A DNA stretch of 64,000 nucleotides, taken from assembly GCF_030551255.1 (NCBI RefSeq), contig NZ_CP130630.1, positions 11,841,001-11,905,000 of the forward strand. Direction: 5' to 3'. Position 1 is the stretch's first letter, and each line of letters begins with the position of its first letter. This document shows, in pieces, positions 4,287 through 5,566 of this stretch. The position numbers were made by a program, and so were the translations under genes. The notes beneath the pieces are model-generated. The model searched no databases and was not told where the DNA came from. It was given only the letters and a program-made list of their open reading frames with translations. The DNA is from Streptomyces sp. NL15-2K (GTDB lineage: Bacteria > Actinomycetota > Actinomycetes > Streptomycetales > Streptomycetaceae).

Positions 4287-5566
4287 ATGACCGCGCCCCG
4301 CATCGACACCCTCCGCCGGCTGCCCAAGGCCGTGCTGCACGACCACCTCGACGGCGGCCTGCGCCCCGCCACCGTGGTGGAGCTCGCGGACGCGGTCGGC
4401 CACACCCTGCCCACCACCGACCCCGACGAGCTCGCCGCCTGGTACGTCGAGGCCGCGAACTCCGGCGACCTGGTCCGCTACATAGCCACCTTCGAGCACA
4501 CCCTCGCCGTGCTGCAGACCCGCGAGGGCCTGCTGCGCACCGCCGAGGAGTACGTCCTCGACCTGGCCGCGGACGGCGTGGTCTACGGCGAGGTGCGCTA
4601 CGCCCCCGAGCTGATGCTGAGGGGCGGGCTGACCCTGCCCGAGGTCGTCGAGATCGTCCAGGCGGGTCTGGCGGCGGGCATGGCCAAGGCCGCCGCCGCG
4701 GGCACCGCGGTGCGGGTCGGCACGCTGCTGTGCGGGATGCGGATGTTCGACCGCACCAAGGAGACCGCCGACCTGGCCGTCGCCTTCCGGGACGCGGGCG
4801 TCGTCGGCTTCGACATCGCCGGAGCCGAGGACGGCTTCCCGCCCGCCGACCACCTGGCCGCCTTCGAGTACCTGCGGCGCGAGAACGTCCCGTTCACCAT
4901 CCACGCCGGCGAGGCCCACGGCCTGCCCAGCATCCACCAGGCCCTCCAGGTCTGCGGCGCCCAGCGCCTCGGCCACTGCGTCCGCCTCACCGACGACATC
5001 GTCGACGGCAAGCTAGTGCCCCGACAGGCAACGTTCGCCCCGTCGCGACGCCCGGCACGCTCCCCCACTGCCCTAAAGGCGTGGGAGGTGCCCCCACTCG
5101 CCGCACCGGCCGAAAGCCCAAGTACGTCCAGTACGAGGGCTTCCGGCCGGCACTCCCCCAGAGGGGGGACCCCCAGAGCACGCACCGGACGCCGCTCCTT
5201 GACGGGCAAACGTTGCCTGCCGGGGCACTAGGCCGTCTCGCGGGCTGGGTCCGCGACCGCCGTATCGCGCTGGAGATGTGCCCGACGTCCAACCTCCAGA
5301 CCGGCGCCGCGACCTCGATCGCCGGGCACCCGATCACCGCCCTGAAGGACCTCGGCTTCCGCGTCACCCTCAACACCGACAACCGTCTGGTGTCGGGCAC
5401 GACGATGACCCGCGAGATGTCCCTGCTGGTCGAGCGGGCGGGCTGGACGGTCGAGGACCTGCGCACGGTCACGGTGAACGCCCTGAAGAGCGCGTTCCTG
5501 CCCTTCGACGAGCGCAAGGCACTCATCGAGGACGTCGTCCTGCCGGGCTACGAGCCCGCGCTCTGA
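4287..5566 (+). pseudogene. add: adenosine deaminase, interrupted by an inverted-repeat element
   Basis: The first part (4287-5015) encodes [25 protein letters not shown] with the metal ligands HDHLDG, then [19 protein letters not shown] and QRLGHCVRL. The rest (5231-5566) encodes [35 protein letters not shown], all standard adenosine deaminase motifs that hydrolyse adenosine to inosine. Between them lies a 213-bp element plus one duplicated TA (insert 5016-5230). Removing 5016-5230 joins GGC AAG CTA GGC CGT in frame (G-K-L-G-R), giving an intact protein of about 354 residues. The insert is 215 bp, so it shifts frame; the first frame runs through it and stops at 5231. The truncated product has lost the NTDN metal-binding Asp and should be inactive. 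Its end overlaps the convergent DinB gene by 19 bp. Confidence 0.95.
5016..5230. mobile_element. 213-bp MITE-like element with 25-bp terminal inverted repeats (plus TA duplication)
   Basis: The left end GTGCCCCGACAGGCAACGTT (5016-5035) and the right end AACGTTGCCTGCCGGGGCAC (5209-5228) are inverted copies with one mismatch; the match continues five bases further with one more mismatch (25 bp, two mismatches). The element is flanked by TA at 5014-5015 and 5229-5230; because the flanks read CTAG on both sides, a 4-bp CTAG duplication gives the same result. There is no coding capacity, so it must be mobilised in trans. TA duplication suggests an IS630/Tc1-type transposase. The interior carries further short inverted repeats (GGGGG/CCCCC tracts near 5155-5175). 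Confidence 0.9.

Follow-up and report, generated by a model that had tools for sequence, protein, structure and literature searches.

Rickettsia palindromic elements (RPEs) are, in the available text of PMC10969869 and PMC2229807, short mobile palindromes found in frame in many protein genes, where they encode a conserved peptide. The available part of the second source also records in-frame fusions inside genes for ERIC and for the 107-bp form of the Correia element (PMC2229807). As far as these descriptions reach, Correia/NEMIS, ERIC and RUP elements share with the family analysed here a size of ~100-200 bp, inverted repeats and TA ends; their hosts are different and the likeness is one of description. 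RUP elements owe their mobility to an IS630 element. IS630 itself and its target preference were reportedly described by Tenzen and Ohtsubo in 1991 (cited in PMC2170065): both IS630 and our family duplicate a TA inside CTAG, but the family element carries no transposase gene.

Here we analyse an insertion in a 64,000-nucleotide stretch of DNA from Streptomyces sp. NL15-2K (the window). Taken as a whole, the following reading seems quite probable to us: the insert is a non-autonomous palindrome of the IS630/Tc1-mariner type, moved in trans; its family is compatible with genes; this copy is out of frame through an additional 17-bp hairpin; and antisense copies are purged. Like the RPEs, in so far as the available text describes them, the family inserts in frame into different protein genes. 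In this sense it appears to behave like them, a likeness of mode of insertion and description from which we claim no membership. Unlike the RPEs, it is found in another phylum, has a clear TA/CTAG target and an IS630-type parent, and combines a strand-asymmetric hairpin with one interior that is flanked by three or more kinds of ends. Rickettsia is the best-known home of in-frame mobile palindromes, and a large family of them in Streptomyces and its relatives would untie the phenomenon from reduced genomes. Streptomyces is mentioned 0 times in each of PMC10969869 and PMC2229807. No published description of the family was found by title or start of abstract, within a coverage that omits most subscription journals and hence leaves absence from print unproven; five strings of 17-20 bases from the family had no occurrence in the searchable texts of papers, a set that again lies outside most subscription journals.

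An interrupted adenosine deaminase gene

The adenosine deaminase gene (ada) is read on the forward strand from 4287 to a stop at 5231, as a truncated ORF of 314 aa (4287..5231) with the C-terminus ...CLPGH. Its final 72 residues are encoded by the stretch that runs from one CTAG site to the next, and the stop is the TAG of the right-hand one. The rest of the gene, NTDN region included, lies detached at 5232..5566 on the same strand, as judged from ORF and domain matches. Excising 5016-5230 (215 bp) produces a 1065-bp frame with one stop and DGKLGRLAGW over the join, that is, 354 residues with no internal stop, in which no further damage is visible. The initial annotation had proposed just this, an otherwise undamaged gene that is split ahead of its NTDN region and restored upon removal of the insert, and our analysis bears it out. 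Its figure of 213 bp is correct for the distance between the TA copies, but the net insertion is 215 bp, which is not divisible by three. The truncated enzyme would be inactive. As A_deaminase has five further long matches in the genome, the viability of the strain says nothing about the loss of ada.

In the genus, 124 of the 294 genomes besides NL15-2K contain an uninterrupted ada, at 81-94% identity and near-full coverage, with no stop or insertion (counted by hand); the remaining genomes gave weaker best matches, of ~65% identity where listed. The insert is absent from the listed orthologues. The expectation that intact genes would show a single TA at the site was borne out for the intact genes and not for the TA: among the 30 orthologues that we fetched, the closest listed, 28 have CTC as the site codon, 2 have CCG and none has CTA, so that CTCG or CCGG, without insert, stands where the window gene has CTAG. 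Since the CTA codon was not seen in any of them, the CTAG target presumably arose in the window lineage and pre-dated the insertion; alternatively, the sequence may have been altered during the insertion itself. We regard the truncation of ada by an IS630-type miniature element as a real gene disruption, and a probably recent one. Another protein of the A_deaminase family (P0065) holds an antisense-frame insert near its C-terminus, which may or may not be a coincidence.

The element occupies 5016..5228 on the forward strand (213 bp) and is recognised as IS630-type and non-autonomous by its repeats, copy number, alignment and shared ends. It is flanked by a left CTAG at 5013..5016, with the duplicated TA at 5014-5015, and a right CTAG at 5228..5231, with TA at 5229-5230; the whole CTAG-bounded stretch (5013-5231) measures 219 bp with both CTAG. 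Its terminal inverted repeats lie at 5016..5040 (forward strand) and 5204..5228 (reverse strand), are the same as the ends of IS630 elements, and extend to 28-bp ends that agree at 26 of 28 positions. The element is thus short, bounded by inverted repeats, devoid of a transposase, present in many copies and flanked by CTAG on both sides where the orthologous site has no insert, as expected of a MITE, and it has the TA target of an IS630-type element. Its DNA fold was matched by none of 200 shuffles (z -8.72), and an Rfam search of the window yielded no family at or above its gathering score.

Inside these ends, three segments can be told apart on the forward strand. A CCCCC-type hairpin at 5061..5095 distinguishes, by alignment, the 202-bp from the 169-bp form of the family and adds 33 bp, which keeps the frame. 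A conserved core stem-loop, CCGGCCGAAAGCCC...GGGCTTCCGGCCGG, lies at 5106..5150; it is supported by helix tests and by further loci, where it is present between other ends too. A second nested hairpin, TCCCCCAGAGGGGGGACCCCC, at 5154..5174 replaces the GCCG of the 202-bp form, as alignment and frames indicate, and adds 17 bp. It is this extra hairpin that brings the net length to 215 bp and puts the copy out of frame, so that the ada frame is shifted, stopped at the element's own right-hand TAG and truncated. Both CCCCC/GGGGG hairpins of the window copy (5061-5095 and 5154-5174) are small, occupy fixed places and vary between copies, and they resemble repeats nested in the element. Elsewhere in the window, positions 1-253 hold the end of a different IS630-family element, with end CTAGTGTCGTGTGAATGAAGT and CTAG-bounded, of which the genome has six copies of the same length.

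A family of miniature elements with IS630-type ends

With up to 3 mismatches allowed, the end sequences are found 151 times in the NL15-2K genome and a reversed control pattern 0 times; the 151 ends correspond to roughly 75 copies. By hand count, 42 element-length places align with the window copy with E-values no higher than 5.7e-44. Recent activity is suggested by three 219-bp copies that are 98-100% identical. Two head-to-tail pairs share one common CTAG (823386/823551 and 3656757/3656922). A stricter end pattern was found in 48 of 392 genomes of a genus sample that includes NL15-2K, which ranks highest with 141 hits, the next genome having 60. In a family sample that includes the genus, a looser one (up to 2 mismatches) matched 96 of the 200 genomes and 13 of the 17 genera; single hits are weak there because the reversed control hits once in each of four genomes. 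The pattern had 0 hits in viral contigs. Sixteen plasmid records contain end matches, and the five that we fetched carry miniature copies or single, decayed ends.

We collected 222 unique copies by similarity to the family ends, a non-random sample. The commonest lengths are 169 bp (99 copies) and 202 bp (27 copies), and nested hairpins of the CCCCC/GGGGG type account for the 33 bp that the 202-bp form has over the 169-bp form and for the 17 bp that the window form has over the 202-bp form. CTAG is preserved at both ends in 174 copies, and the net length is divisible by three in 165 of the 222, irrespective of location. The 169-bp base form adds a net 165 bp, which in sense reads as a 55-residue peptide rich in Pro, Ser, Thr, Ala and Arg.

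The initial annotation had described an element mobile in trans, which the analysis supports, and had left its mover unnamed; the shared ends now indicate the IS630 type. The same ends are found 1.5-2.0 kb apart in other genera of the Streptomycetaceae: CTAGTGCCGC[A/G]TCAGGCAACGTTYGCCC flanks nine elements of this size in eight genomes of two other genera, a tenth fetched pair being only 572 bp apart. Eight of the nine (all but L373) contain a frame that resembles a transposase and measures 388-429 codons between its stops, and the ORF of L369 belongs to the IS630 family (NF033545, 157.8 bits for a cut-off of 100) and has a DDE_3 domain too. As the miniature element and these IS630 elements agree over ~27 bp at their ends, an IS630-type transposase probably moved the element, in trans, into the TA within a CTAG.

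An intact cognate transposase, which would be expected for recent activity without defining it, was not found in the NL15-2K genome. The best relative there, a decayed transposase fragment, is 70% identical over residues 2-244 and contains one TGA; its 3.7-kb locus has a single exact end of the copy type and lacks the other; and the six intact IS630 copies are distant (32% identity) and have different ends. The cognate enzyme thus seems to be now absent from this genome. No transposase was recognised at eight unpaired ends inspected as candidate autonomous copies, nor did any of 248 loci offer two such ends 330-6000 bp apart.

An IS701-family transposase was considered as mover, since IS701-like elements with CTAG boundaries adjoin copies at four loci (L036, L038, L039 and L103). 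The target is common to both, but the ends are different: those of the IS701-like elements (TAGTAGGACTCCGTTAGG, TAGTAGTGCTTCGTTACG) do not resemble the CTAGTGCCSCGRCAGGCAACGTT ends of our element, where terminal repeats of the IS701 kind were not found, whereas the IS630 ends match throughout the shared stretch. We rejected this candidate as extremely unlikely. At the same four loci the junction with the IS701-like element, inspected by eye, falls at a shared CTAG and each time on the side of the transposase start.

Orientation and frame of the copies inside genes

Gene-internal copies were recognised from the third-position G+C and the absence of stops in the emptied site, with no requirement for the element to be open. 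By this strict test 16 of 207 copies are inside genes, one of them ambiguously, and all of the 15 unambiguous ones are in sense orientation (15 sense, 0 antisense); two looser gene criteria gave 18 sense versus 6 antisense and 18 versus 7. Fourteen of the 15 sit in codon phase CTA, L140 being in another phase, and 13 of these 14 are in frame, with ada as the exception. In a control of 300 element-free CTAG sites, 15 were gene-internal, 12 of them in phase CTA. The phase is therefore uninformative and was dropped as evidence, and the orientation is informative. Nor do we claim a depletion from genes: one and the same test placed 12 of 141 elements and 15 of the 300 element-free sites inside genes.

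The excess of sense copies in genes could also have been set at insertion, by a transposase that favours one orientation relative to transcription. However, the copies that lie outside genes, between co-directional genes, are nearly balanced (30 sense, 24 antisense, from a rough flank classifier that left 73 copies as unknown), and this makes an insertion bias very unlikely. Selection seems the most economical account of the bias: a sense copy in frame would be survivable, and an antisense one would put a duplex in the mRNA. As a side observation, gaps between convergent genes hold more copies than those between divergent genes (67 versus 14, with 76 unknown, among the 222).

The sense base form would be read as a peptide without stop or frameshift, in the fashion of the RPEs, and the common forms look built for read-through when they land the right way round. 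In four long genes the copies are read straight through: a condensation/thioesterase-like gene (L010) and a glycosidase-like gene (L012), both named by eye, a penicillin acylase (L022, with the same junction in P0048) and an aldehyde dehydrogenase (L102, P0002). The label 'non-coding' that had been given to the element is hence wrong for the family, whose common forms continue the frame of other genes. For annotation, copies of the ada type are best labelled disruptions and the others fusions.

We further searched proteins with the inserted 60 residues only, placed inside a 513-residue scaffold. The sense peptide retrieved 61 proteins, including the query's own record, with precomputed Pfam domains of many families; antisense-frame peptides in the same scaffold retrieved 9 (xCT) and 14 (CTA). 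Counting only inserts that lie 20 or more residues from either terminus of the protein leaves 50 for sense CTA, 3 for antisense xCT and 13 for antisense CTA, of which 49, 2 and 9 have 85% peptide coverage. Openness does not explain this sense excess, because antisense frames are open in most copies too: among the 222, 161 are in frame and open in sense CTA, 126 in antisense CTA, 154 in antisense xCT and 40 in sense xCT. Several of the antisense-frame protein matches look like families with other ends.

Two SLC13 permeases, P0027 and P0051, from Streptomyces sp. NPDC052020 and S. viridiviolaceus, have one insert in common (residues 158-213). They are 88% identical over 525 residues without gaps, the outer parts of the insert having diverged, which suggests that the host protein is kept intact after insertion. 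A GH13 protein has a 75-residue insert between two matched halves. In the aldehyde dehydrogenase the insert splits the conserved LEL/GG site, which we take to adjoin the catalytic glutamate, and this protein may well be inactive. More generally, read-through proteins would keep their function. The variation in the element has no codon-position bias (0.153, 0.156 and 0.159 bits; columns 29-141 of 99 copies), and there is thus no sign of selection on the peptide itself.

These data weigh on two other explanations. In the first, the element is an ordinary non-coding MITE that only knocks genes out, and the in-frame cases reflect annotation, open in-frame copies being those recorded as single proteins. 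It describes the window copy well, protein databases can display open frames only, and 191 of the 207 copies are not gene-internal by the strict test. Yet the DNA test, in which openness plays no part, found sense copies exclusively; the antisense frames, mostly open, are ~5-fold (CTA) and ~25-fold (xCT) rarer inside proteins; and one insert is common to two diverged permeases. We therefore judge it rather unlikely. In the second, the insert is removed or skipped after transcription, by RNA excision or by ribosome bypassing between two CTA codons, which would rescue even the out-of-frame ada. The sense-only strict set, the strong RNA structure, the identical codons at both ends and the insert inside a conserved motif of the aldehyde dehydrogenase would all suit it. 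But an open frame would then be irrelevant, and 98 of the 99 169-bp copies and 25 of the 27 202-bp ones have an open sense CTA frame; nearly all sense/CTA gene-internal copies keep the frame, though so do most copies overall; and the Rfam search speaks against it as well. Removal or skipping is very unlikely in our opinion, and read-through of sense copies with purging of antisense ones is the reading that we retain.

Such a large, high-copy family would offer, in hosts that can be cultured, dozens of natural protein fusions together with empty orthologues. It would bear on transposons as a source of new protein segments and on the survival of one orientation.

Strand-asymmetric folding and a shared interior

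The RNA of a 169-bp copy folds at -107.5 kcal/mol in sense and at -151.3 kcal/mol in antisense, both better than all 200 shuffles, and antisense is the more stable strand in 99 of 99 such copies. The mean antisense-minus-sense difference of -39.6 in the 71 distinct 169-bp copies compares with -15.7 (sd 4.9) for 300 shuffles. In the consensus antisense hairpin, 11 of the 76 pairs are G-U, and an antisense insertion would place this near-perfect hairpin in the host mRNA. Antisense gene-internal copies are rare and have presumably been purged, with the hairpin as the likely cause.

Among changes to Watson-Crick pairs, 131 cells keep antisense G-U pairing, 32 keep sense G-U pairing and 64 are other mismatches; the cells do not represent independent events, and deamination with a strand bias could mimic the pattern. 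For the two named helices, none of 500 shuffles reached the observed values of three measures (percentage paired, cells with changes on both sides, covariation score), a result that relatedness alone can produce; the observed number of pairs with changes on both sides was reached by 48 of 500 and that of pair types by 245 of 500.

The interior is conserved beyond the genus: the consensus of 99 Streptomyces copies and that of 15 Kitasatospora copies differ at 4 of 169 positions, all of them in the ends. It also occurs between different ends. Twenty further loci with the core motif in the NL15-2K genome were classified by eye, 7 with the familiar ends and 13 with others, which include CTAGGGCCTGTGTCGAAAGT, CTAGGGCCTGTTGCGAAAGT, CTAGGGGGCTTCTGATGGAT or variants. 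Three other-ended elements keep to a multiple of three in net length; the sense CTA frame is open in two of them, and the third has a stop near its end.

It is conceivable, and we propose it tentatively as somewhat less probable than not, that the ~110-bp interior is a mobile cargo that several CTAG-targeting transposons have taken up between their ends, and that it is kept to a multiple of three, open in sense and with its antisense G-U pairing preserved. A sense insert would then act as a tolerated linker and antisense RNA would form a long duplex hairpin. If this were true, the proteomes of the Streptomycetaceae would be continually seeded with the peptide. The miniature elements with the same interior and other ends at L417-L436 of the NL15-2K genome suggest an exchange of ends around one cargo.
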